DNA from: an uncultured Gemmatimonadota bacterium
GTDB lineage: Bacteria > Gemmatimonadota > Gemmatimonadetes > Gemmatimonadales > GWC2-71-9
Reading direction: 5' to 3'
Length of the DNA stretch: 32,127 nucleotides
NCBI GenBank assembly: GCA_937871775.1
Contig: CALMOP010000269.1
Location: forward strand, 1-32,127
A model generated the notes under the pieces. It was given only the letters and a program-made list of their open reading frames with translations. It was not told where the DNA came from and searched no databases. The first letter of the stretch is position 1. Each line of letters begins with the position of its first letter. The position numbers and the translations under genes are program-made. Positions 2 to 18,576 of the stretch are shown piece by piece.

Positions 2-319
2 CACGACGTCGACTTCCACGAGCTGGTGTACCACCTCGGCAGTCGGCCCCGACTGAAGGAACTGATCGCGGGTCTGTTGCGTCGAGTGGACCGGTACTGG
101 CTGATGCACGGCCTGATGCTGACCCATCGGCTGGAGTTCGAGGCCGAGCACCGGGCGCTCCTGGCGGCATTGCGAGCCCGGGACCCGGAGGCGGCGGCCG
201 GGCTGCTGGAGGCGCACCTGGCAGGTGCTTGCCGCCATCTGATTGCCGAGCTGACTCGACACGACTCCGGGGCCGGGGCCAGCGTGACCCCGGACCTCCC
301 CCCGGCGCCCGCCCGATAG
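2..319 (+). CDS. GntR-family transcriptional regulator, C-terminal FCD domain (5' truncated by window edge)
   Basis: Open frame from the window start, HDVDFHELVYHLGSRPRLKELI...EHRALLAALRARDPEAAAGLLEAHL, matches the FCD ligand-binding domain pattern (D..FH, EH..ll.Al...D...A). Ends TAG at 319. Confidence 0.8.
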   Translation, partial: HDVDFHELVYHLGSRPRLKELIAGLLRRVDRYWLMHGLMLTHRLEFEAEHRALLAALRARDPEAAAGLLEAHLAGACRHLIAELTRHDSGAGASVTPDLPPAPAR

Positions 320-354
320 CGGCGCCTTTCCGGCCCTGACCGCCAGCGGACCGC

Positions 355-1260
355 ATGCACTCCAAAGTCACCTCGATGCGCGAAGCCATCGCCGCCCACG
401 TCCATGATGGGGACACGGTGGTCATCGAAGGCTTCACCCATCTCATCTGCTTCGCCGCCGGGCACGAGATCATCCGGCAGCGGCGCCGCGACCTCACCAT
501 CGCCCGGCTGACGCCGGACCTGATCTACGACCAGATGATCGCCGCCGGCTGCGCCCGGAAGCTGGTCTTCTCCTGGGCCGGCAATCCCGGCGCCGGTTCG
601 CTGGGGGCCTTCCGGCGGGCGGTGGAGAAAGAGACCCCGCCCCTCGAGATCGAGGAGTACAGCCACTTCGGCATGGTGGCCCGGATGTCGGCCGGCGCCG
701 CGCGGCTGCCGTTCTGGACCATGCGGAACTACATGGGCACCGACCTTCCCAAGGCCAATCCGCTGATCCGCACCGTGACCTGCCCCTATACCGGCGAGGT
801 GCTGGCCACCGTGCCTGCGCTCAACCCCGATGTGACCATCATCCACGCCCAGCGGGCGGACCAGTTTGGGAACGCCCAGGTCTGGGGCCTGCTCGGCGTC
901 CAGAAGGAAGCGGCCTTCGCGTCGAAGCGGGTGATCGTGGTGGTGGAGGAGCTGGTGGACCAGTCGGTGATCCGGGCCGATCCCAATCGCACCCTGATTC
1001 CGGGCATGATCGTCGCTGCGGTGGTGGTGGAGCCGTGGGGCTGCCACCCCAGCTACGCCCAGGGCTACTACGATCGCGACAACGACTTCTACGTCGCCTG
1101 GGAGGACATCTCCCGCAACCCCGCCCGGCTGGAGGCCTACCTGCAGGAATTCGTCTACGGTGTGACGGACCGCGCGGCATACCTCAGGAAGCAACCGGAA
1201 TTGCGGGATCGACTCGCGGCCAAGGACCTGATCTGCGCGGGGGTGAACTATGGCTTCTAA
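355..1260 (+). CDS. CoA-transferase subunit A (glutaconate/3-oxoacid CoA-transferase family I, alpha)
   Basis: 301 aa; N-terminus MREAIAAHVHDGDTVVIEGFTHLICFAAGHEIIRQ and IIHAQRADQFGNAQVWG are typical of family I CoA-transferase alpha subunits. Followed by the beta subunit with an 11-nt overlap. Confidence 0.9.
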   Translation: MHSKVTSMREAIAAHVHDGDTVVIEGFTHLICFAAGHEIIRQRRRDLTIARLTPDLIYDQMIAAGCARKLVFSWAGNPGAGSLGAFRRAVEKETPPLEIEEYSHFGMVARMSAGAARLPFWTMRNYMGTDLPKANPLIRTVTCPYTGEVLATVPALNPDVTIIHAQRADQFGNAQVWGLLGVQKEAAFASKRVIVVVEELVDQSVIRADPNRTLIPGMIVAAVVVEPWGCHPSYAQGYYDRDNDFYVAWEDISRNPARLEAYLQEFVYGVTDRAAYLRKQPELRDRLAAKDLICAGVNYGF

Positions 1261-2050
1261 GGCGGCGCCCGCCGCGGACCAGGCCGCGGCTGCCTACTCG
1301 CCTGCCGAGATGATGGCCGCGGTGGCGGCCCGGGAGCTGGCCAACGGCGAGGTGGTCTTTGTCGGCATCGGGCTGCCCAACCTCGCCTGCAATCTGGCCC
1401 GGGCGCTGCAGGCGCCGGACCTGGTCCTGATCTACGAATCCGGCGCGGTGGGCGCGGTGCCCGAGCGGCTGCCGGTCTCGATCGGGGACCCCTCGCTGGT
1501 GACCGGGTCGCTGATGGTCTGTTCCATGGCCGATGTGTTCCAGCTGTTCCTGCAGAATGGCAAGATCGAGGTCGGGTTCCTGGGCGGGGCCCAGGTCGAT
1601 CGCTGGGGGAACATCAACACCACGGTGATCGGGAGCTACGACCGGCCCAAGGTCCGGCTCCCCGGTTCCGGCGGGGCCGCGGAGATCGCGATCCATGCCC
1701 GGCGGGTGGTCATCATCAGCCGGCTCAACGCTCGCGCTTTTCCGGCGGAGGTCGACTTCCTGACCAGCCCCGGTCAGCGCTGCCGAGGCCGGACCCGCAC
1801 GGAGCTGGGGATGCCCGGGGCGGGCCCGATCAAGGTGATCACCGACAAGGGCATCCTGGAGAATGATCCGGAGTCCGGAGAGATGGTCCTGACGGCGCTG
1901 TACCCCGGGGTTGCCGTGGCTGAGGTGAAAGCGAACATCGGCTGGCCGCTCCAGGTCCGGCCCCAGCTCGGGCTGGTTGCTCCGCCGACTGGGGAGGAGC
2001 TGCGACAGCTCCGAGAGGTGCTGGATCCGAAGAAACTGTTCCTGGGTTAG
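1250..2050 (+). CDS. CoA-transferase subunit B (family I, beta)
   Basis: 266 aa; VFVGIGLPNLACNLA...LIYESGAVGA contains the family I catalytic Glu context (ESG). Overlaps subunit A. Confidence 0.9.
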   Translation: MASKAAPAADQAAAAYSPAEMMAAVAARELANGEVVFVGIGLPNLACNLARALQAPDLVLIYESGAVGAVPERLPVSIGDPSLVTGSLMVCSMADVFQLFLQNGKIEVGFLGGAQVDRWGNINTTVIGSYDRPKVRLPGSGGAAEIAIHARRVVIISRLNARAFPAEVDFLTSPGQRCRGRTRTELGMPGAGPIKVITDKGILENDPESGEMVLTALYPGVAVAEVKANIGWPLQVRPQLGLVAPPTGEELRQLREVLDPKKLFLG

Positions 2051-4202: not shown

Positions 4203-6810
4203 GGTGGAAGGTCTGTCGAAGGTCGAGGAGAGGCAAGCACCCCCGGGGTCCCGGCGCGGCTGCCGGGCCGCGCTCTGGGCGGTGCTCTGCTGCGGCCTGC
4301 CGCAGGCGGCGCTGGCCCAGCGTGAACCGGTCCTCAAGCAGGTCAAGCTCCCCCACAATTACTACTACCGGGAGATGTACCTCCCCCAGGTGACCAGCGG
4401 GCCCTCGGCCGCCACCTGGTCCCCGGATGGCACCACGCTGATCTATTCGATGCAGGGGAGCCTGTGGCGCCAGGTTGTCGGGGACTCGGTGGCGGAACAG
4501 CTGACCACCGGCCCGGGCTACGACTACCAGCCGGACTGGTCCCCGGATGGATCCACCGTGGTTTACGCATCCTATCACGATGACGCGGTGGAGCTGCGGT
4601 TGCTTGACGTGACCACGCTGGTCTCGGCGCCGCTGCTCGCGGACGGAGCGGTCAATGTGGAGCCGCGCTGGTCGCCCATCGGAGGCCGGATCGGCTTCGT
4701 CTCGACCGCCTACCAAGGCCGCTTTCACATCTTCGTGCTGCCACTGAGTCGGGTAGCCGGAGCCGGGCCACGATATCGGGCCGCGGGGCCCGCGGAGCGC
4801 CTCACCGAGGACGTCGACTCGGGCCTGCCGCGCTACTACTACAGCCGCTACGACCACTACCTGTCACCGGCATGGTCCCCCGATGGCCGCGAGATCCTGC
4901 TGGTCAGCAACCGGGGCCGGACCTGGGGCACCGGCGGGTTGTGGCGGATGGAGGCGGTGCCCGGCGCGACCCTGCATCAGGTGCAGGAGGAGGAGTCCAC
5001 CTGGAGGATGCGTCCCGACTGGGCCCCGGACGGGCGCCGAATCGCCTATGCCAGCTATCTCGGCCGGCAGTGGCACCAGCTCTGGCTCACCAGTGTCGAT
5101 GGAGCGAGGGCCGGCGATCCGCTCCAGCTCACCTACGGCGAGTTCGACGCGACCGAGCCGCGCTGGTCACCCGACGGGCGGCACATTGCCTACATCAGCA
5201 ATGAGGGGGGCAATACCAGGCTGATGCTGGTGTCGGTGCCGGGCGGTGAGCGGCAGCCGGTGCTCCCGCTTCGTCGGGTCTTCCGGGAGCCGGTGGGCCG
5301 GCTGCGGATCACCGTGACCGACTCGGCCACTGGCCGGCCGCTCCCGGTCCGGATCTCGGTGACCCTGGCGGACGGCCGGAGCGCGGCCCCCGACGACGCC
5401 TGGCGGCACGCAGACGACGGTTTCGATCGGGCCCAACGCCGCTTTGAGGTCGGCTACTTCCACAGTGCCGGCGAGAGCACCCTCACCGCACCGGTGGGAT
5501 GGGTACGGGTGGAGGTGACTCATGGCCCGGAGTACCGGGTCTTCCGGGACAGCGTTCGGGTCACCAGCGGGGCCGTGACCAATCTGCGGCCGCGCATGAG
5601 ACGGCTGACCAGCCTGCCCGGATGGACCTCGGGAGACCTGCACGTCCACATGAACTACGGTGGCCACTATCGCGCGACCCCGGCAACCCTGGCCCGGCAG
5701 GCCCGCGCCGAGGGGCTCAACCTGGTGGAGAACCTGATTGTGAACAAGGAGGATCGGATGCCGGACATCGGCTACTTTACCGGGCGGCCGGATCCGGTCT
5801 CGTCGGCGAACCTGCTGCTGCTCCACGACCAGGAGTATCACACCAGCTGGTGGGGTCACACCGGCGCGCTCGGGCTCACCGACCACATCCTGTTGCCGGG
5901 CTATGCCGGCTACGCCGGTACTCCGGCCTGGAGCCTCTTTCCAGACAACGCCACCGTCGCGGAGCTGACCCACCGCCAGGGTGGGCTGTACGGGTACGTC
6001 CACCCGTTCGATACCGACCCCGATCCCGCGGACACCATCACCGCGCTCACCAACGCGCTGCCGGTCGACGTCGCCCTCGGCCAGGTGGACTACCTCGAGG
6101 TGGTGGGGTTCAGCGACCATCTGGCGACTTCGCGGGTCTGGTACCGGCTGCTCAACTGCGGCTTCCGGCTGCCAGCGGGTGCGGGCACCGACGCGATGAC
6201 CAACTTCGCCTCGCTGCGGGGGCCGGTGGGGACCGACCGGGTCTACGTGCAGTCGCCGGTGCCGCTTGATCGCCAGCGGTGGTACGCGGCACTCCGGGCC
6301 GGCAAGAGCTTCGCGACCAACGGCCCCCTGCTCCAGTTCGAGGCCGGTGGGGTCGGCATCGGAGGTGAAGTCCAGTTGCCCGCAGCGGGTGGTCAGGTCC
6401 GCCTGCATCTGGTCCTCAACTCCATCGTCCCGATCGATCACCTGGAGCTTGTCGGGAACGGTGAAGTCGTGGCCACGATCCCGCTTCACGGGGACCGTAC
6501 CCACGCGGACACCAGCGTGACCCTGACAGTTCACCGCAGTGGCTGGTATCTGCTTCGGGCCTGGAGCGAGCAGGCTCGGGAGCCGATTCTGGATATCTAC
6601 CCGTTTGGCAGCACCAGCCCGATCTATGTCTCAGTCGGGGGCGCCCCGGTCCGGAACGGCGTGGACGCTGCATATTTCCTGGCGTGGATCAACCGCCTGG
6701 AGGCTGCGGTGGAGGCCCATTCCGGCTGGAATGCCAGCGCCGAGCGGCGGGAGGTGCTGGGCCGGATCCAGGCGGCACGCGCGGAATTCGAACGGCGGCG
6801 GCCGTCGTAG
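4201..6810 (+). CDS. TolB/PD40 beta-propeller fused to a CehA/McbA-type PHP-like metallohydrolase domain, secreted
   Basis: Repeated WSPDG motifs (ATWSPDGTTL, PDWSPDGSTV, PAWSPDGREI, PDWAPDGRRI, PRWSPDGRHI), then GDLHVHMNYGGHY, GLNLVENLIVNKED and YGYVHPFD typical of CehA/McbA. Signal-like region LWAVLCCGLPQAALAQ. The exact start is uncertain. Confidence 0.8.
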   Translation: MVEGLSKVEERQAPPGSRRGCRAALWAVLCCGLPQAALAQREPVLKQVKLPHNYYYREMYLPQVTSGPSAATWSPDGTTLIYSMQGSLWRQVVGDSVAEQLTTGPGYDYQPDWSPDGSTVVYASYHDDAVELRLLDVTTLVSAPLLADGAVNVEPRWSPIGGRIGFVSTAYQGRFHIFVLPLSRVAGAGPRYRAAGPAERLTEDVDSGLPRYYYSRYDHYLSPAWSPDGREILLVSNRGRTWGTGGLWRMEAVPGATLHQVQEEESTWRMRPDWAPDGRRIAYASYLGRQWHQLWLTSVDGARAGDPLQLTYGEFDATEPRWSPDGRHIAYISNEGGNTRLMLVSVPGGERQPVLPLRRVFREPVGRLRITVTDSATGRPLPVRISVTLADGRSAAPDDAWRHADDGFDRAQRRFEVGYFHSAGESTLTAPVGWVRVEVTHGPEYRVFRDSVRVTSGAVTNLRPRMRRLTSLPGWTSGDLHVHMNYGGHYRATPATLARQARAEGLNLVENLIVNKEDRMPDIGYFTGRPDPVSSANLLLLHDQEYHTSWWGHTGALGLTDHILLPGYAGYAGTPAWSLFPDNATVAELTHRQGGLYGYVHPFDTDPDPADTITALTNALPVDVALGQVDYLEVVGFSDHLATSRVWYRLLNCGFRLPAGAGTDAMTNFASLRGPVGTDRVYVQSPVPLDRQRWYAALRAGKSFATNGPLLQFEAGGVGIGGEVQLPAAGGQVRLHLVLNSIVPIDHLELVGNGEVVATIPLHGDRTHADTSVTLTVHRSGWYLLRAWSEQAREPILDIYPFGSTSPIYVSVGGAPVRNGVDAAYFLAWINRLEAAVEAHSGWNASAERREVLGRIQAARAEFERRRPS

Positions 6811-6835
6811 GGGCGACCCTACGGGTCGCCCCTAC
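6807..6835. repeat. Perfect palindromic element GTAGGGGCGACCC-TAC-GGGTCGCCCCTAC (copy 3); contains the stop codon of the upstream gene
   Basis: 13-bp perfect arms with a 3-nt loop; TAG stop of the 4201-6810 CDS lies at 6808-6810 inside the left arm. Confidence 0.85.
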
Positions 6836-6881
6836 CGCCCCCCCCACGCCCGCCGCCATCACCCAACCTGAACGGACAACG

Positions 6882-8186
6882 ATGATGACCATCCGCTGGA
6901 TCTTCGCAATCACCGCGGCCGCTGCAACATCCCTCGGTGCCCAGGACCTCACTGTGATCCGGGCGGGCCGGTTGGTGGATGTTGAGCAGGGGAGCGTCCT
7001 CACCAACCAGGTCATCGTGGTCCGGGGGGAGCGGATCGAGTCGGTTGCGCCGGCTGGTGCCGCCCTGCCCAAGGGCGCCCGGGTGATCGACCTGACCGGG
7101 TACACGGTGCTGCCGGGCCTGATCGATTGTCACACTCATCTGGTGGGCCTTCTCCAGACCGCCAGCGTGGGCGACTTCCTGACCCGCTCGGCGGCCCAGG
7201 ACGTTCTGGACGGGGTCCGTCACGCCGGAGAAACGCTGCGCGCCGGGTTCACCAGCGTGCGCGACGTCGGAGTGTACCGGGCCTTCACCGATGTGGCCCT
7301 GCGGGGCGCCATCAACGACGGCACCGTCGAGGGACCCCGGATGCTGGTGGCCGGCGCCTACGTGACGGTGTCCAGTGGCGGTGGAGAGCTGACCGGCATG
7401 GCTCCGGATGTCGTCCTTCCGTCCGAGATGCGGCGCGGGGTGGCCAACTCGGTGCCGGAAGTGCGCCAGCGGGTGCGGGAGCTGCTCAACGGCGGGGCCG
7501 ACTTCATCAAGGTCATCGCCACTGGCGCGGTGCTCACACTGGGAACCGAACCCGGGACCCCGGAGTTCACCGAGGAGGAGATTCACGCCGCGGTAACCGA
7601 GGCGGCCAACTACGGCACCTTCGTGGCCGCCCATGCCCACGGCGCCGAGGGGATCAAGCGGGCGGTGCGGGCGGGGGTGCGGTCCATTGAGCACGGATCC
7701 CTGGCCGATGACGAGGCGTTGGCCCTCATGAAGGAGCACGGCACCTGGCTGGTGGCGGATATCTGGAACGGAGACTACATCGATTCCGTCGGGACCCGGG
7801 ATGGCTGGCCGGAGGAGACCCTCCGCAAGAACCGGGAGACTACCGAAACCCAGCGGGTCGCCTTCCGGAAGGCGGTAAAGCTGGGGCTGCACCTCGCCTA
7901 TGGCACCGACAGCGGGGTCTATCCCCATGGGCTCAACGCGGCCCAGCTGCCCTACATGGTAAAGTACGGCATGACGTCGATGCAGGCCGTTCAGTCGGCA
8001 ACGATCGATGCCGCCAGGCTGCTGCGTTGGGAGGATCGGGTCGGTTCGGTGAGCGCCGGGAAGTTCGCCGATCTCATCGCCGTGAAGGGAGATGCCCTGG
8101 CGGACCTGAACAGTCTGATGACCGTCGCCTGGGTACTAAAAGGGGGACGGGTGGTCGTTGGGACCGGAGGGCAGAGTATCCGGTAA
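6882..8186 (+). CDS. Amidohydrolase family protein (secreted, Xaa-Pro dipeptidase/imidazolonepropionase-like)
   Basis: Signal peptide MMTIRWIFAITAAAATSLGAQ; GLIDCHTHLVG, KVIATGAV, HAHG, SIEHGS, YGTDSG motifs. Start placed at ATG 6882. Confidence 0.9.
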   Translation: MMTIRWIFAITAAAATSLGAQDLTVIRAGRLVDVEQGSVLTNQVIVVRGERIESVAPAGAALPKGARVIDLTGYTVLPGLIDCHTHLVGLLQTASVGDFLTRSAAQDVLDGVRHAGETLRAGFTSVRDVGVYRAFTDVALRGAINDGTVEGPRMLVAGAYVTVSSGGGELTGMAPDVVLPSEMRRGVANSVPEVRQRVRELLNGGADFIKVIATGAVLTLGTEPGTPEFTEEEIHAAVTEAANYGTFVAAHAHGAEGIKRAVRAGVRSIEHGSLADDEALALMKEHGTWLVADIWNGDYIDSVGTRDGWPEETLRKNRETTETQRVAFRKAVKLGLHLAYGTDSGVYPHGLNAAQLPYMVKYGMTSMQAVQSATIDAARLLRWEDRVGSVSAGKFADLIAVKGDALADLNSLMTVAWVLKGGRVVVGTGGQSIR

Positions 8187-8282
8187 GGCCGGGTATCGAC
8201 ATGGATCCTGACCCCGGGTCCGCGCCGGTCGCAGGCCGCGATGTATTGAGCGGACATCCGCCACGATGGGGTCATCGAGCGA

Positions 8283-8486
8283 GTGGGCATGGTTACCGCG
8301 GCGAGCCCCAAGTCGTTCGTGCTGCCGCTGTGGCGCTTCGGTCCGGCCGGAACCTGCCAACTGGGAGTGACCCAGGTCGGAGGTCCGGAGGCGAACCTGA
8401 CGGAGACGCCGGTGGTCCGGGCCAACGATCGGATCAGCCACACCCTGGAAAGTGATCTCGACCGGTCCAGCGTGATGATCCAGTAG
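8283..8486 (+). CDS. Hypothetical short ORF in an otherwise unexplained gap
   Basis: 67-aa frame with high GC3 and plausible composition, but no recognised family and a poor start. Could be a gene remnant. Confidence 0.2.
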   Translation: MGMVTAASPKSFVLPLWRFGPAGTCQLGVTQVGGPEANLTETPVVRANDRISHTLESDLDRSSVMIQ

Positions 8487-8528
8487 GTCTGTGGACGGCC
8501 GGGGTCGTCGTGCGGCAGGCTGCGCCCC

Positions 8529-8588
8529 CTCGCGATGACTGGCTTCGGTCTAGCCGCGCCCGCCCCGAAGCCCGGCAGTCATTGCGAG
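8529..8588. repeat. Long imperfect inverted repeat (REP/MITE-like; may act as terminator of the GNAT gene)
   Basis: CTCGCGATGACTGGCTTCGG (8529-8548) pairs with CCGAAGC-ccgg-CAGTCATTGCGAG (8565-8588), with one G-T pair and a 4-nt bulge. Confidence 0.7.
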
Positions 8589-8603
8589 CGTCGCCTGGCG
8601 GGC

Positions 8604-9167
8604 TCAGGGGGAGCGCGGCGGATTCGATTGGGGCGGAAACACCTTGGTGAAGATCACCTGATCGTCACCGGGGGCGTAGAAGTCCGGCACCCGTGCCACG
8701 GCCTGGTAGCCGAGCGCGGCGTAGAATCCGCGGGTGGCGGTGTAGTCCGGGCGGCCAGAGGTATCGATCGTCACCAGGCGCGCCTTGCCCCGGAGGCGGC
8801 GCTCCATCTCGTCGACCAGGGCCCGGGCCACGCCCCCGCGGTGCGTGGCCGGGTCCACCGCCAGCCAGTAGAGGTCCCAGGTCCCCTCAGTGCAGGGAGT
8901 GCGGCCCCAGCAGACCCACCCGGAAAGGATGCCGTCGACATCGGCGCCGAGGCCGTAGTAGGGCCGTTCGATCGGCCAGCCGGTCGGATCCACCAGGGCC
9001 GGGACGCCGCCACTGGGCCCGGCGGCCTCGACGCAGTCGTGCAGCACTTCGTCGGCAATGGCCAGTTCTTCCTCGCGGAACACGCCGGTGGCCCGGGTGA
9101 GCTCGAGGATCCGGTCCGCATCGGCACTCGTCAGATCGCGGAGACGAGGCGCGATGCGGGGCTTCAT
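8604..9167 (-). CDS. GNAT-family N-acetyltransferase
   Basis: 187 aa; LYWLAVDPATHRGGVARALVDEMERRL (acetyl-CoA binding motif A) and ATRGFYAALGYQAVARVPDFYAPGDDQVIFTK. 4-nt overlap with the upstream ATP-grasp gene. Confidence 0.9.
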   Translation of the reverse strand: MKPRIAPRLRDLTSADADRILELTRATGVFREEELAIADEVLHDCVEAAGPSGGVPALVDPTGWPIERPYYGLGADVDGILSGWVCWGRTPCTEGTWDLYWLAVDPATHRGGVARALVDEMERRLRGKARLVTIDTSGRPDYTATRGFYAALGYQAVARVPDFYAPGDDQVIFTKVFPPQSNPPRSP

Positions 9168-10186
9168 GTGGTCGCGGTGGTCGGGCTTCCGGTGGTGAGG
9201 GCGACGGCGGCCAGGCGGGAGGAGGACCGGGACAGCGACTCTTCCACGATCCGGCAGATGAGGTCTTCGTACTCCCAGCCCTGGGCCTTGGCCATGCGGG
9301 AAAGGCCGGCGGCGTCAGAGATGTCGGGGTTGGGATTGACTTCGAGCACGAACGGCTGGCCGGAGGCGTCCACCCGCAGGTCGACCCGACCGTAGCCCTC
9401 CGCCCCGCACAACGCCTCCCATGCCTCCCGGGCGACCGCCACGATCCGCTTCTGGGTCTCGGCGGGGAGATCAACCGGGCAGATCGGGGTCGAGCCGAGA
9501 TCTTCCGGGCTGCCGACGTCCCACTTGGCGGCGTAGGTCAGGATCGGCCAGCTGCCCTCGGGCATGTTGTCGAAACAGAGTTCGGCGATCGGCAGGACCA
9601 GTTCGCCCACGAACCCGACGTTGAACTCCCGCCCGGCCACATACTCCTGGACCAGGACCTCTTCCCACTGCTCAACCATCTCGGCCAACCGCTTCTTCAG
9701 CGCCTTCCGGGTGGTGCAGACCGACCCTGCGTCGATGCCTACGCTGGCGTCTTCCGTCGCCGGCTTGACGATCACGGGCAGGGTGAGTTCGGCGGGAAGC
9801 TTGTTGCCGCTCGACAGGACGAACCGCGGGATCGGCGTCCCGGCCCGCGCCAGAAGGGTGTTGGCGACGTGCTTCCGGTGCGCCACGGTGACCGCCCACG
9901 GCTTGCAGCCGGTGTAGGGCACCCCGGTCAACTCGAGGGTCGCCACCACGAAGTCCTCGTACCGGGCCTGCCCCGCGATCCCCTCGCACAGATTGAAGAC
10001 CGCATCCGACCGGCGGACCCGGGGGAGCCAGCTGAAGTCGTTGGGCGCCCGCACCGGGATGCTGGTGGTCTCGTAGCCGCGGCTGCGGAGGGCGGCCTGG
10101 ACCTCCTTGACGCTCTCCCAGACCGAGGCCACGTCCTTGGCGTCCCAGGTATCCCACCCGCCGTCATAGAGTACAGCCACCTTCAT
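9164..10186 (-). CDS. ATP-grasp ligase, D-alanine-D-alanine ligase-like (copy 1 of tandem pair)
   Basis: MKVAVLYDGGWDTW...VFNLCEGIAG...VIVKPATEDASVGIDAGSV...VLVQEYVAGREFNVGFVG...GYGRVDLRVDASGQPFVLEVNPNPDIS. Start set at ATG 10186. Confidence 0.9.
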   Translation of the reverse strand: MKVAVLYDGGWDTWDAKDVASVWESVKEVQAALRSRGYETTSIPVRAPNDFSWLPRVRRSDAVFNLCEGIAGQARYEDFVVATLELTGVPYTGCKPWAVTVAHRKHVANTLLARAGTPIPRFVLSSGNKLPAELTLPVIVKPATEDASVGIDAGSVCTTRKALKKRLAEMVEQWEEVLVQEYVAGREFNVGFVGELVLPIAELCFDNMPEGSWPILTYAAKWDVGSPEDLGSTPICPVDLPAETQKRIVAVAREAWEALCGAEGYGRVDLRVDASGQPFVLEVNPNPDISDAAGLSRMAKAQGWEYEDLICRIVEESLSRSSSRLAAVALTTGSPTTATT

Positions 10187-11283
10187 GCCGCCACCTCCGC
10201 GAGAAGTGAGCGGCCGCTGATGCGCCGCCATGCGATGTCCGCCACACTCCGAATCAGCTCTTCGTAGCTCATCCCGGCCGCGCGGGCCGCCTTCGGGAAA
10301 CAGGAATTGTCCCGCGGGTCCGGCAGGATTCCCGGCAGCGGGTTCAGCTCCACGACGTTGGGGATGCCGTCACCGTCGCAGCGAATGTCCACCCGACACC
10401 AGTCCCGGCAATCCAGCGCCTGGTACGCCCCCAGCGCAACGGTCCGGATCTGCGAGGCCACCCGGGCCGGGACCCGGGCCGGGCATTCGAAGATCTCCAG
10501 CGGATCGTCGGGACGGTCCCAGATCCACTTGGCCTCGTAGCCGTAGATCGGAGGCGCCCCTTCCGGCAACTCGTCGAACCGCATGCCGACGATCGGCAGG
10601 CAGTGGGCCTCCTTGCCGTTCCCCATGATGGCCACGGTGAACTCGGCGCCGGGGAGGTAGGTCTCCACCAGGACCGGCTCCCGGTAGGTGCTGAGCAGGT
10701 AGTCTGCCTGCTTGACCAGCTCCCGCCGGTTGGTGCAGAGGCTCCGAGTGCTCACACCCTTGCCCGATCCCTCGAACGCCGGCTTGGCAAAGAGCGGGAA
10801 AGGCAGGGTGCAGCCTCTGGCGTCCGCCAGGCTTCGGGCCAGCAGGAAGGGCGCCGTCGGTACCCCCCGGAGCTGGAGGATCTCCTTGGCGCGCCCCTTG
10901 TGGAGCGCCAGGGAGAGGGCCAGCGGATCGGAGGCGGAATACGGCACCCCGAGGAACTCGCAGATGGCCGGAACGTGGCCCTCCCGGTTCGCGCCGTAGA
11001 GCCCCTCCGCGATGTTGAAGACGAAATCTGGACGGACCTGGGCCAGCCGGGTCGGGAAGTCGTCGACCGCCTCGAGCCGGATCACCTTGCCAAGCGGCCG
11101 CAGGGCGCGTTCGACGGCGGTGATGGTCTCAGGCTCGTCCCATTCGGCGTAGAGGTCTGGCTGGGGAAGGTCGTAACGGAGATCGCGGGAGGATCCGGAA
11201 CGTGGAGGGGCGACAGTTGCCCCGGCGGGCTTGGCCGGCGCTTCCGGTCTCAGGTTGAAGGCAAGTCCTATGCGAACTGCCAA
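10183..11283 (-). CDS. ATP-grasp ligase, D-alanine-D-alanine ligase-like (copy 2 of tandem pair)
   Basis: FVFNIAEGLYGANREGHVPAICEFLGVPYSASDPLALSLALHKGRAKEIL...LFAKPAFEGSGKGV...VLVETYLPGAEFTVAIMG...WCRVDIRCDGDGIPNVVELNPLPGI. TTG start at 11283 preceded by an AGAGGAT Shine-Dalgarno-like sequence; 4-nt overlap with copy 1. Confidence 0.9.
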   Translation of the reverse strand: MAVRIGLAFNLRPEAPAKPAGATVAPPRSGSSRDLRYDLPQPDLYAEWDEPETITAVERALRPLGKVIRLEAVDDFPTRLAQVRPDFVFNIAEGLYGANREGHVPAICEFLGVPYSASDPLALSLALHKGRAKEILQLRGVPTAPFLLARSLADARGCTLPFPLFAKPAFEGSGKGVSTRSLCTNRRELVKQADYLLSTYREPVLVETYLPGAEFTVAIMGNGKEAHCLPIVGMRFDELPEGAPPIYGYEAKWIWDRPDDPLEIFECPARVPARVASQIRTVALGAYQALDCRDWCRVDIRCDGDGIPNVVELNPLPGILPDPRDNSCFPKAARAAGMSYEELIRSVADIAWRRISGRSLLAEVAA

Positions 11284-11512: not shown

Positions 11513-12265
11513 TCAGACCTTGTGAAATCCCACCCGGCCGGCTTCGGAGCCGTCCACCGTCGGGTAGACCTCGAAGTCGGCGAAGAACGCGGCGGCCTCC
11601 GCCTTCAGCACCGTGAGGCAACTCAGCGCCATGCGCCGGATCTCCAGCTCGGCACCCTCGCCCAGCCGCAGCTCCAGCATGGTGCGCCAGGCCCGGATGT
11701 TGGCGCTGACCACGATCTTCACCTCGGTGGCGTTGGGCAACACGCTGCGGGCCGCCTCGCGCGCCATCTTGCGACGGTGCACCCGGTCCTCCACCCAGCT
11801 GTACTTCTCCATGAGCCGCCCCACCGCCTGGACATAGGCTCCCTGGGCGGCCTCCATCTGTCGAGTCCACTCGGCCTCGAGGGTCAGGTCACCGAGGATG
11901 GCCGGGGGCATCACGAAGGCCGCCTGCGACTCATCCACGTACCGCTGCGACAGTTGGGAATACCCGAAGCCAGCCCGGTGGCGAACCAGCTCGTGGCTGC
12001 AGGACCGGCTGATCCCCTCGATCAGCAGCACGTAGACCGCGTGCTCGAACACGGAGCCGTGGCCTTGCTGCAGGATGTTGCCCAGGTACTCGGCGGTGCT
12101 CCGCCCAGCCGGGTTCGCCTGACTCATGTAACAGATCCGGCCGGCGAACTCCGCCAGCCGCTCCCCGGCGGAGGCCGGCCCCTTCCATTGTACCGGCAGG
12201 TGGGCGGGCTCCAGAAACTCGGGGCGGGCGATCAGGGTCACCCGGGGGGCTTTGAGGATGTCCAT
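11513..12265 (-). CDS. thyX: Flavin-dependent thymidylate synthase ThyX
   Basis: HGSVFEHAVYVLLIEGISRSCSHELVRHRAGFGYSQLSQRYV and AREAARSVLPNATEVKIVVSANIRAWR are ThyX hallmarks. Start set at ATG 12265. Confidence 0.95.
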   Translation of the reverse strand: MDILKAPRVTLIARPEFLEPAHLPVQWKGPASAGERLAEFAGRICYMSQANPAGRSTAEYLGNILQQGHGSVFEHAVYVLLIEGISRSCSHELVRHRAGFGYSQLSQRYVDESQAAFVMPPAILGDLTLEAEWTRQMEAAQGAYVQAVGRLMEKYSWVEDRVHRRKMAREAARSVLPNATEVKIVVSANIRAWRTMLELRLGEGAELEIRRMALSCLTVLKAEAAAFFADFEVYPTVDGSEAGRVGFHKV

Positions 12266-12347
12266 GCGGTTGCGGTCGGGCTGGAGGTGATGGTCGGGGG
12301 AACAGGGAACAGGAACCAGCCGCCAGCCCGCCGGTCCGACAGCCGGC

Positions 12348-14003
12348 TCAGGTGCTGGCCAACTCGGACCGACTCCGGGCGTAGCCTCCGGTCCGCTCGA
12401 TCTCCCGCAACCGGTCGGCAATATCGTCCGGGATGGGGGCGGCGGCCGGCCCCAGCTTCAAGTCCGCGAGCGCCGGCCGGTCGCCGGCCAGTTTGACGCC
12501 GGGGTTGAAGATACCATCGGGGTCGAACGCCGTCTTGACCAGCTGGAACAGCGCCATGATTTCCTGGCCATACAGGGATGGCAGCAGGCCGGCGCGGAGC
12601 CGACCGTCTCCGTGCTCCCCGCTGACTGTGCCTCCCAGTCGGATGGCGGCGTGGTTGACCTCCTCATACAGGCCCTGTACCTGGGCCATCCAGTCGGGAC
12701 GGCCTACGTCGGGGATCAGGTTCACGTGCACGTTGCCATCCCCGGCGTGTCCGAAGATCACCACCATGACCCCCCGGGCTGCCGCCGCCTCCCTGATGGC
12801 CCGGATGTACGCCCCCAAGCCGGCCAGGGGCACGCAACCGTCCTCGATGACCTGGAGCGAGCGGTAGCTCCCGGGCAGGCTGGCCAGGATGGGGCTGGCC
12901 GCGTGCCGCAACGCCCACAGCTGGTGCTCCTGCTCTGTAGTGAGGGCGGTCAGCACGTCGAGCGCCAGCGATCGCACGGCACCGACCGCGTCCGCTGCGG
13001 CCCCCTGGGCCGCGGTCAGGCTCTCCCGCTCGAATTCGAGCAGCAGCACCGCCTCGGTGCCGTCCGGCAGGTCGGGGCGCTCAACGCCGCGTCCTGCCAG
13101 GGTGATGAGGTCCAGAAAGGTCCGGTCCAGCAGCTCGAGGGCCGAGGGGTCCGATTGGAGAACGGCCCGGACCGCCTCCTCGAGGTCGTCCAGAGACCGC
13201 AGCGCCACCCGGACGGCGGTGTGTGCTGGCGCCACCGGCGCCAGGCGCCAGCGAATCGTCGTCAGCAGGCCCAGGGTTCCCTCCGCGCCGATCAGCAGAT
13301 CCAGGTCGTCACCGGAGTCGAGCCAGCGATCCAGGGCGTAACCGGCCGTGTTCTTCCGCACCTTGGGGAACCGCTGCGCGATCAGATCCACCGCCGCCCG
13401 AATGGCCGGGGCCGCCCGGGCGTGGAACCGGGTGATCGCGGTCGGCAGACTCCGGCTGATGGCGTCCTGCCGCAGCAGCGGCCTGATGGTCTCCCCCCGG
13501 TTCAGCCACCCGAGCTCCGCGTCCCCGGTCACGACCTCCATGCCCATGACCCACGGTCGCACCGGCCCGTGCCGGACCGATCGAGCCCCGGCGGCATTGG
13601 TGGACACCATGCCGCCGAGGGTCGCCCAGGCGCTGCTGGAGGGGTCCGGTGGGAGCCGGAGCTGGTAGCCCCGCGCGGCGTGATTCAATTCGGCATGGGT
13701 GATATTGCCGCTGGTCACCGCGGTAGCGCTGGCGGGATCGATCTCGAGGATCCGGGGCATCCGGTCCCGCAGGTCGACGATGACACCCGCGCCGACCGCA
13801 CTGCCGGGGATGCCACTCCCCGCACCCCGCGCTGTGAGCGAAGTCCCGGTTTCCCGGGCCCAGCTCACCAGCGCCTGCAACTCGGCGACACTCGAGGGCC
13901 GGGCCACGCCCGCCGGCAGGATGCGGTAGATACCCGCTGCCTCGGCGTAGGCGGCCCGAAGCCGTGGGTCGCGCGAGACCTGGTCTGAGGTGGCGCTGGT
14001 CAT
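12348..14003 (-). CDS. FAD-binding oxidoreductase (GlcD / D-lactate dehydrogenase-like)
   Basis: PSSVAELQALVSWARETGTSLTARGAGSGIPGSAVGAGVIVDL, LGGMVSTNAAGARSVRHG, LIGAEGTLGLLT, IFGHAGDGNVHVNLI, SGEHGDGRLRAGLL, FDPDGIFNPGVKL. Start set at ATG 14003. Confidence 0.9.
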   Translation of the reverse strand: MTSATSDQVSRDPRLRAAYAEAAGIYRILPAGVARPSSVAELQALVSWARETGTSLTARGAGSGIPGSAVGAGVIVDLRDRMPRILEIDPASATAVTSGNITHAELNHAARGYQLRLPPDPSSSAWATLGGMVSTNAAGARSVRHGPVRPWVMGMEVVTGDAELGWLNRGETIRPLLRQDAISRSLPTAITRFHARAAPAIRAAVDLIAQRFPKVRKNTAGYALDRWLDSGDDLDLLIGAEGTLGLLTTIRWRLAPVAPAHTAVRVALRSLDDLEEAVRAVLQSDPSALELLDRTFLDLITLAGRGVERPDLPDGTEAVLLLEFERESLTAAQGAAADAVGAVRSLALDVLTALTTEQEHQLWALRHAASPILASLPGSYRSLQVIEDGCVPLAGLGAYIRAIREAAAARGVMVVIFGHAGDGNVHVNLIPDVGRPDWMAQVQGLYEEVNHAAIRLGGTVSGEHGDGRLRAGLLPSLYGQEIMALFQLVKTAFDPDGIFNPGVKLAGDRPALADLKLGPAAAPIPDDIADRLREIERTGGYARSRSELAST

Positions 14004-15091
14004 CGGGTCGTGGCAGGCAGGGTGTTCCTGCCGCTGACCACCCGCGCAAACAGCCAGGACGACAGGGAGTTGAACGGAGCCACCAGCGCCGACGCCAGCA
14101 GCAGCAGGTACACCTCGTGCCGGGACATCTTCAGCCGTCGGCCCACCGACCAGTCGGCCCGCTGCCGCCAGACCAGGCCCAGCGTGCGGCGGGCGAAGAT
14201 CATCGAACTCAGGCAGAACAGCCGGACTCGGAAGGCCCGGCGCGGTAGCAGGCGGCAATACTCCAGTGCGGTGCGGAGATGCCGGTCCGCCTCCAGCACC
14301 AGCATTTCCAGCACCGCGACGGCTTGCGTCTGATAGGGTGGCTGGAACACCAGCTCCGGGGTCAGCCGCGCCTGATTCCAGATGGCATCCGGCACCAGGA
14401 TGCGCCCGTCGGCGTGATCCTCCGGCAGGTCGCGGATCACGTTGGTGAGCTGCAGTCCCAGGCCGAACCCGGTGGCCCGCGAACTGAGCTCGGCGTGGCG
14501 GGCCACGGTGATCCCCGGACAATGGCGCTGGAACAGGCCGGTCAGCAGGTGGCCGACCGTCCCGGCCACGTAATAGCAATACCGCTCCAGGTCCGCCAGC
14601 GCGGCGAAGCGGAGGCCCGGCTGCCCCGACACCGGCAGGCTCCGGCTCATCCCTGCGATCATCTCCTCGACTCGGGGTACGATGCACGCCCGGTCGCCCG
14701 GGGGCAGCCGGCGAAACGCCGCCAGCACCCAGTCCGCCGACCTCACCAGCAGGTCCTGCGGGCCGGTGCCGCTTGCGGCCGCGGCCAGGTCGGCCAGGCT
14801 GACCGTCGGATCGGTCAGGGCTTGCTGCAGCACCGCCAGCAGCTCCTGACGCCGGCTGATAGGAAGCCCGGCACCGTCCTCAACCGTGTCGGCGATGCGG
14901 CACAGCAGGTAGGAGAGGGTGATGGGGCGGGACAGCTCTCGGGGCAGCAGGGCGATGCCCAGCGCGAAGGTGCGCGACACCTGCGGCAGCATGCCGCGGC
15001 AGAAGGACCAGTCGGCCTCAGGGGTCGGGTTCCGCTGTGCCGGGACGGCGACGGGGCGACCAGGTCCGGGCCCCGTGCCGGGAACGATCAT
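14000..15091 (-). CDS. Squalene/phytoene synthase family (squalene synthase-like)
   Basis: VSRTFALGIALLP, LLCRIADTVEDG (first Asp-rich motif), RYCYYVAGTVGHLLTGLF, GLGLQLTNVIRDLPEDHADGR (second Asp-rich motif). ATGA overlap with the FAD enzyme. Confidence 0.88.
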   Translation of the reverse strand: MIVPGTGPGPGRPVAVPAQRNPTPEADWSFCRGMLPQVSRTFALGIALLPRELSRPITLSYLLCRIADTVEDGAGLPISRRQELLAVLQQALTDPTVSLADLAAAASGTGPQDLLVRSADWVLAAFRRLPPGDRACIVPRVEEMIAGMSRSLPVSGQPGLRFAALADLERYCYYVAGTVGHLLTGLFQRHCPGITVARHAELSSRATGFGLGLQLTNVIRDLPEDHADGRILVPDAIWNQARLTPELVFQPPYQTQAVAVLEMLVLEADRHLRTALEYCRLLPRRAFRVRLFCLSSMIFARRTLGLVWRQRADWSVGRRLKMSRHEVYLLLLASALVAPFNSLSSWLFARVVSGRNTLPATTR

Positions 15092-17367: not shown

Positions 17368-18576
17368 TCACCCGAGCGCCTCCACGATCACCGCCTCTCC
17401 CTGGCCACCGCCGATACAGGCACTGGCCAACCCACGGCGCTGGCCGCGGGCCCGGAGCGCATGCAGCAGGTGCAGGGTCAGCCGGGCTCCGGTCGCGGCC
17501 AGCGGATGCCCGATCGCAATCGCCCCGCCGTCGGCGTTGGTCCGGGCCCGGTCCAGCCCCAGTTCGCGTTCGACCGCCAGATACTGGGCGGCGAAGGCCT
17601 CGTTGACCTCGATCAGGTCCATCTGGTCCAGCGTGAGCGAGGCACGGGCCAGCGCCTTGCGCGCCGCCGGCGCGGGACCGATGCCCATGAGCCCCGGTTC
17701 GACCCCCGTCACCGCCCATGCCACCAGGCGGCCGATCGGCTTCCATCCCCGGGCCGCCGCGGTCTCGGCGTCCGTCAAGACCAGGGCCGCGGCGCCGTCA
17801 CAGATGCCCGAGGCGTTGCCGGCGGTGACCACGCCATCCTTGCGGAAGTAGGGTGGCAGTTTCCCCAGACCCTCGGCGCTGGTGTCGGGGCGGAGATGTT
17901 CGTCGCTAGCCCAGGGTTCGTCGGCCTTGGTCTTGCGATTCCGGATCGGGACCGGCACCACCTCCTCGCGGAATCGTCCCGCGGCCCAGGCCGCGGCTGC
18001 CCGCTGCTGGCTGGCCAGCGCCACCGCGTCCACTTCGCTCCGTGAGAGCTGGTAGCGTTCGGCCAGCGCCTCGGCGGTTTCCGCCATCGACAGCCCGCAC
18101 TGTGGGTCCCGCAGCGCTTCCCACAGGGCGTCTTCCAGCGGAGGTGGGGGACCGAGCCGCAGCCCCCAGCGGGCTCCCCGGAGAACATGCGGCGCCTGGC
18201 TCATCGATTCCGCGCCGCCCACCAGCACCAATCGCGATTCCCCCAGCAGGATCTGCTGTGCCCCCTGAACGATCGCCTCGAACCCGGAGCCGCACAGCCG
18301 GTTCACGGTGACTGCCGGGGTCTCGACCGCACAGCCGCTCCGCAACGCGACGTGGCGTGCCAGGTAGATCGCATCGGCACTGGTCTGCAGCGCATTGCCG
18401 AAGACCACATGCTCGATCTCCATGGGGGCCACCCCCGAACGCTCCAGCGCCGCCCGTCCGGCGATCACACCCAGATCGGTGGCGGAGTGATCCTTGAGGC
18501 TGCCCCCGAAGGTTCCGAATCCGGTGCGGACTCCGGAGAGAATCACTACATCCCGGCTGTGGCCCTGGGTGGCCAT
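17368..18576 (-). CDS. Acetyl-CoA acetyltransferase (thiolase)
   Basis: VNRLCGSGFEAIVQGAQQILLGE (nucleophilic Cys), NASGICDGAAALVL, EVNEAFAAQYLAVERELGLD, NADGGAIAIGHPLAATGAR, ASACIGGGQGEAVIVEAL. Confidence 0.95.
   Translation of the reverse strand: MATQGHSRDVVILSGVRTGFGTFGGSLKDHSATDLGVIAGRAALERSGVAPMEIEHVVFGNALQTSADAIYLARHVALRSGCAVETPAVTVNRLCGSGFEAIVQGAQQILLGESRLVLVGGAESMSQAPHVLRGARWGLRLGPPPPLEDALWEALRDPQCGLSMAETAEALAERYQLSRSEVDAVALASQQRAAAAWAAGRFREEVVPVPIRNRKTKADEPWASDEHLRPDTSAEGLGKLPPYFRKDGVVTAGNASGICDGAAALVLTDAETAAARGWKPIGRLVAWAVTGVEPGLMGIGPAPAARKALARASLTLDQMDLIEVNEAFAAQYLAVERELGLDRARTNADGGAIAIGHPLAATGARLTLHLLHALRARGQRRGLASACIGGGQGEAVIVEALG

Follow-up and report, generated by a model that had tools for sequence, protein, structure and literature searches.

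Organization of the Locus

The window analysed here is a stretch of 32,127 nt, contig C269 of the genome of an uncultured Gemmatimonadota bacterium (G000; 3.06 Mb in 360 contigs). Its minus strand carries three ORFs that encode two ATP-grasp ligases related to D-Ala-D-Ala ligase (Ddl), here called A and B, and a GNAT N-acetyltransferase (Table 1). Direct reading of the coordinates bears out the initial annotation, which had described three consecutive genes with a 4-nt overlap at each junction; both overlaps read ATGA. Translation is assigned to start at a TTG codon for A (position 11283) and at ATG codons for B (10186) and GNAT (9167). The TTG codon is preceded by the sequence AGAGGA, and a TTG-type start is also present in close homologues of A. 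GC content at third codon positions is 0.84–0.90 across the three genes, and the cut-off of PF07478, the Ddl C-terminal family to which both ligases are assigned, is 24 bits. Promoter and terminator scans of the locus found neither element.

Table 1. Features of the A-B-GNAT locus and its surroundings in the window
Feature	Position	Strand	Basis or remark
Gene A, Ddl-like ATP-grasp ligase, 366 aa	10183..11283	-	PF07478, 111 bits; first in operon
Gene B, second Ddl-like ATP-grasp ligase, 340 aa	9164..10186	-	PF07478, 100 bits
Gene G, GNAT N-acetyltransferase, 187 aa	8604..9167	-	PF00583/PF13508
ATGA overlap, A stop/B start	10183..10186	-	direct reading
ATGA overlap, B stop/GNAT start	9164..9167	-	direct reading
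Site of KamA in relatives, no KamA remnant	8187..8603	.	KamA query against the window
Amidohydrolase, convergent with GNAT	6684-8186	+	beyond the GNAT end
GntR/FCD regulator, 3' part, gene cut by the contig end	2..319	+	FCD domain; outside the operon

Upstream of the operon (11513-15091, minus strand) are genes for ThyX, an FAD-linked oxidase (GlcD-like), and a squalene/phytoene-synthase-like protein. ThyX, the FAD oxidase, and often the squalene/phytoene-synthase-like gene precede the operon in families f1 and f2; the flanks in other families hold different genes, 3-dehydroquinate synthase in several. We considered these three genes as members of the pathway and rejected them, as they are missing in the other families and in the operon of a Desulfuromonadaceae metagenome-assembled genome (MAG; L038), and we treat them as lineage neighbours that lie outside the core. 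Elsewhere in the window are a pair of CoA-transferase-like subunit genes (355-1260 and 1250-2050, plus strand) and a beta-ketothiolase-like gene (17368-18576, minus strand).

A and B Are Distinct from the Housekeeping Ddl

The genome encodes a canonical Ddl elsewhere, on contig C246 (L001:1036-2055). This 339-aa protein scores 168 bits against PF07478 and carries the motifs GGxSAE, YECKY, and EANTLPGMT. Both A and B fall well below the cut-offs of the models that define Ddl, A with 130 of 246 bits for TIGR01205 and 163 of 243 bits for PRK01372, and B with 123 and 147 bits, respectively. The earlier statements that no Ddl lies near the cassette and that neither ligase looks like the housekeeping enzyme are both correct.

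When residues are mapped onto the numbering of Escherichia coli DdlB, Lys97, Lys144, Glu187, Lys215, Arg255, Asp257, and Asn272 are invariant in A and B, and the position of Glu270 is occupied by Glu or Asp. The Glu15-Ser150-Tyr216 triad is incomplete in both ligases: each of the 32 A and B sequences examined has Trp in place of Tyr216, the N-terminal SxE motif that contains Glu15 is absent from both by alignment, and Ser150 is lost only in B. Ligase A retains Ser150, Gly276, and Ser281 together with Lys215, whereas B has Ala or Gly at position 150, Asp at 276, and Ala at 281. In structures of Ddl, an enzyme that makes a free dipeptide, Lys215 and Ser281 hold the carboxylate of the acceptor. 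As these acceptor-carboxylate residues are kept in A and not in B, the acceptors of the two ligases may differ; the residue pattern suggests that the acceptor of A may resemble an alpha-amino acid and that B would take another, perhaps one with a cationic group near Asp276.

An AlphaFold2 model of B (pLDDT 91.9, pTM 0.90) finds only Ddl enzymes as its best matches in the PDB (19–28% identity, TM ~0.75). Ddl is the nearest relative of A and B by sequence and, for B, also by fold.

The same genome encodes a third Ddl-like ATP-grasp protein of 402 aa (L004 on contig C100, 1108-2316, minus strand), in which Tyr216 is likewise replaced by Trp. Adjoining it (111-1121, minus strand) is the gene for a 336-aa metallopeptidase-like protein with a cysteine motif and, as judged by eye, an HExxH-type motif. 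Elsewhere, a Sinorhizobium medicae plasmid (L092) has an ATP-grasp gene near one for a zinc-ribbon protein, and an Acidobacteriota MAG (L041) has one near a gene for a Peptidase_Mx protein.

Conservation and Linkage

Conservation was assessed in 200 genomes of the phylum Gemmatimonadota, with B counted as present above 200 bits; the B query carried four extra N-terminal residues, its start having been taken as 10198 and not as the true start, 10186. A occurs in 65 of these genomes, B in 64, GNAT in 64, and KamA, a radical-SAM protein described below, in 56. A and B occur together in 64 of the 200, with a single exception (Fisher p ~4e-52, a value that, like all co-occurrence p-values here, ignores relatedness). 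B and GNAT are common to 62 genomes, with two that have only B and two that have only GNAT; B and KamA are common to 55, with nine that have only B and one that has only KamA. At the A-B junction, an NTGA overlap is present in 27 of 43 homologous loci. From this overlap and the co-occurrence of A and B, their linkage is not a matter of chance. Ligase and GNAT are physically linked, as in ATP-grasp/GNAT amide clusters: of the 64 genomes with B, 62 have the GNAT, whose gene usually overlaps that of B.

The gene order is A-B-GNAT-KamA, in which neighbours mostly overlap or sit within tens of bases of each other, and this contiguity spans the organism's own family, its own order, and further families of the class. 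The same order is found in a Gemmatimonadetes MAG (L037), whose B is 52% identical to that of the window and whose KamA is 79% identical to that of a genome of the organism's own family, and the complete operon is present in the Desulfuromonadaceae MAG. B and GNAT form a single polypeptide in two genomes (L074 and L079). For some members of family f2, GNAT is located elsewhere in the genome, and in G124 and G157 A and B stand alone. The spread observed outside the phylum is a lower bound, as the contig scan used B, the less conserved ligase. ATP-grasp relatives on rhizobial plasmids (three records, 33–36% identity) occur without the cassette, and a scan of viral contigs returned one relative, at 25% identity. 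No transporter or regulator was seen to be consistently linked to the operon in the homologous loci.

Two deltaproteobacterial MAGs (L039 and L040, ~4568-7011) carry a GNAT of the same subfamily followed by a single B-like ATP-grasp gene, with neither A nor KamA; in L039 a Fic-domain gene precedes the GNAT. This pair may be a related system of shorter form.

Synteny across several families, co-occurrence, the B-GNAT fusions, and the separate Ddl strongly support the membership of A, B, and GNAT in one pathway. The shared pathway first proposed from the overlaps is thereby strengthened, and the triad is indeed syntenic in other genomes.

A Predicted KamA-Family Aminomutase Completes the Ancestral Operon

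In most relatives, the gene directly 3' of GNAT encodes a radical-SAM protein of the KamA family, which is present in 55 of the 64 genomes with B. The ancestral operon is A-B-GNAT-KamA. The initial annotation had missed this fourth gene and with it the best clue to the substrate, which points to lysine or beta-lysine.

The best NCBIfam match of KamA is the lysine 2,3-aminomutase AblA at 437 bits, and the AblA cut-off of 525 bits is not reached by the proteins of the phylum (437 and 431 bits) or by that of the Desulfuromonadaceae MAG (479 bits). Its single PDB match is the lysine 2,3-aminomutase of Clostridium subterminale (2a5h; 2e-110). Across 19 KamA sequences, the three cysteines of the radical-SAM cluster and the residues that correspond to Arg134, Asp293, Asp330, and Lys337 of 2a5h do not vary. 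Asp293 and Asp330 hold the epsilon-amine of lysine and differ in the glutamate enzyme, and from these invariant lysine-specific residues KamA is predicted to convert L-lysine to beta-lysine.

We also considered beta-lysylation of EF-P by EpmA and EpmB. No EpmA above the TIGR00462 cut-off was found in the nine genomes tested (best ~250 of 287 bits), and these best matches lie in reading frames of ~500–680 aa, the size of lysyl-tRNA synthetase. EF-P modification was rejected on these grounds, and beta-lysine is thus not obviously made for EF-P.

Loss of KamA and a Divergent KamA2

The genus of the window has lost the operon KamA. A KamA query finds no match in the window, and its congener G088 (L042) has the same junction, in which GNAT is followed by the convergent amidohydrolase without KamA. 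The sole KamA-family gene of the organism's genome encodes a divergent 472-aa protein, KamA2, on contig C340. KamA2 scores 172 bits against TIGR00238, just under the cut-off, and retains the cysteines, Arg134, Asp293, and Asp330. It is found in exactly four of the 200 genomes of the phylum (G000, G088, G041, and G132), and of the 31 genomes with A and B in the organism's own family, the operon KamA is truly missing from these and no others; an apparent absence in G194 was discounted because the contig ends within the gene. The chance of such a match is 1 in 31,465 (four chosen of 31), a figure to be read in light of the fact that only two genera, and so few independent events, are involved.

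In the congener G088, a single contig carries both KamA2 and GNAT, ~8 kb apart. In the organism's own genome, contig C340 and the window both end inside a GntR/FCD regulator gene, and the partial regulator of the window matches those next to KamA2 in L085, L086, and L087, which suggests that KamA2 probably sits just beyond the left edge of the window. At the KamA2 loci (L082/L088 on C340, L085, L086, and L087) the regulator gene is divergent from KamA2, and in the congener the CoA-transferase pair adjoins this regulator.

A class-III aminotransferase gene follows KamA2, and together with the GntR/FCD regulator the two possibly form a unit for the catabolism of lysine or beta-lysine. With these neighbours KamA2 looks catabolic and may be unrelated to A, B, and GNAT. 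If such a role, which is equally possible, is the true one, loss of the operon KamA might be explained by a supply of beta-lysine that was already in place. Beyond the four KamA2 carriers, two genomes with A and B have only weak KamA-family matches (G157 and G183) and two have no KamA-family match at all (G102 and G124). The last two are genuine evidence that beta-lysine may not be needed everywhere.

The GNAT Subfamily

A profile of the GNAT family matches PDB entry 2r7h at 2e-49, with far weaker matches to every other GNAT of solved structure. The entry is titled "putative D-alanine N-acetyltransferase of GNAT family", a name that is the depositor's annotation, and no paper on its function was found in the literature searched. 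Searches with 19 members of the GNAT subfamily hit 17 NCBIfam families in total, none of which is AblB, and assignment of the GNAT as AblB was accordingly rejected. The model TIGR03103 ("trio_acet_GNAT") is matched weakly (8.5e-4) by one of the 19.

Proposed Pathway and Alternatives

The reading that we prefer, and to which we give about an even chance, is that the operon builds an N-acetylated amide containing beta-lysine by the action of KamA, two ligases, and the GNAT. KamA, or in this genus probably the divergent KamA2 encoded elsewhere, would convert L-lysine to beta-lysine by moving its 2-amino group to C3. A and B would each use ATP to activate a carboxylate as an acyl-phosphate and then join it to an amine in the manner of Ddl, and the two ligation steps would give a short amide-linked compound around beta-lysine. 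The GNAT would acetylate an amine that is still free, with acetyl-CoA as donor, by which charge would be removed or breakdown blocked. The product would probably be a soluble intracellular N-acetylated beta-lysine di- or tripeptide, perhaps a compatible solute or protectant. Support for the involvement of beta-lysine comes from the lysine-specific residues of KamA, the occurrence of KamA2 only where the operon KamA was lost, and the lack of an EpmA above cut-off in the nine genomes tested. Two ligations followed by N-acylation, as first suggested from the three genes, fit the enzyme classes; the chemistry itself, with the substrates, step order, acetyl as acyl group, product, and physiological role, we infer.

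Four other explanations were weighed. If KamA is an optional addition that alters one building block in most lineages, ordinary alpha-amino acids could be the precursors from which A, B, and GNAT build an N-acetylated di- or tripeptide, and the organism of the window would make this alpha version. Consistent with this notion, A-B, with or without GNAT, occurs in G102 and G124 without any KamA, A and B stand alone in G124 and G157, and ligase A retains the alpha-amino-acid acceptor residues of Ddl. We nevertheless judge it unlikely, as 55 of the 64 cassettes include KamA, and KamA2 is found in each of the four members of the organism's family that lost it. The ligases could instead attach beta-lysine, lysine, or another amino acid to protein or peptidoglycan, with no free metabolite. 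Some ATP-grasp enzymes, of the RimK/LysX type, modify proteins, which is what speaks for such a role; no carrier protein was seen in the operon, no EpmA exceeds its cut-off, and both ligases are nearest to Ddl, which makes attachment to a macromolecule quite improbable. That one ligase is the housekeeping Ddl, or that the pair is a Van-type system for a variant cell wall, would accord with the placement of both in PF07478. This explanation is left with next to no probability, and we rejected it: the genome has its canonical Ddl on C246, the scores of A and B are far under the Ddl and Van cut-offs, Trp216 is present in 32 of 32 sequences, the SxE motif is absent, and no VanH/VanX-like gene was seen adjoining.

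Like AblA and AblB, KamA and the GNAT could also produce N-epsilon-acetyl-beta-lysine, with the ligases extending this compound or acting separately. The AblA model gives KamA its highest score, and in methanogens the ablA-ablB operon makes this osmolyte (PMC1224877). We hold this version to be improbable, because the KamA score of 437 bits is short of the 525 required, the AblB model is matched by none of the 19 GNATs, the fusion partner of the GNAT is ligase B and not KamA, and the GNAT stays where KamA has been lost.

Returning to the beta-lysine amide, we tentatively suggest, with less than even confidence, that the operon represents an undescribed bacterial pathway in which an acetylated beta-lysine peptide is assembled by Ddl-derived ligases in place of nonribosomal peptide synthetases, and in which KamA has been swapped for KamA2 at another locus in some lineages, including the organism of the window. 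No description of an A-B-GNAT-KamA operon was found in the literature searched, of which coverage was partial, so that an earlier mention is possible. If this suggestion is correct, a pathway dedicated to a beta-amino-acid amide is present in about one-third of the genomes sampled from a phylum that is widespread and poorly cultured, and Desulfuromonadaceae share it. It would show how Ddl was turned to the making of beta-peptides, and the product may prove to be a new compatible solute or signal. With only four genes, the set could be expressed in E. coli, so that the idea is open to direct test.

Comparison with Known Systems

With Ddl (PF07478, TIGR01205), A and B share the fold, the ATP-grasp core, and, by family, amide-bond formation through an acyl-phosphate. 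They differ in the absence of SxE, in Trp216, and in scores well under the cut-offs, and B differs further in Ala150, Asp276, and Ala281. The abl operon for the osmolyte N-epsilon-acetyl-beta-lysine likewise combines a KamA-family aminomutase bearing the lysine-specific residues with a GNAT in the same operon. Here, however, two Ddl-like ligases are added, the GNAT is of another subfamily, KamA is under the AblA cut-off, and the aminomutase gene is missing from the operon of the window. For the GNAT, 2r7h is the only strong relative in the structural database. N-acetylglutaminylglutamine synthetase (TIGR03103) and other ATP-grasp/GNAT amide systems resemble the cassette in that linked or fused domains combine ligation with acetylation, and their product is a small acetylated dipeptide. 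Unlike systems of the TIGR03103 type, the cassette described here has two separate Ddl-like ligases and a KamA.
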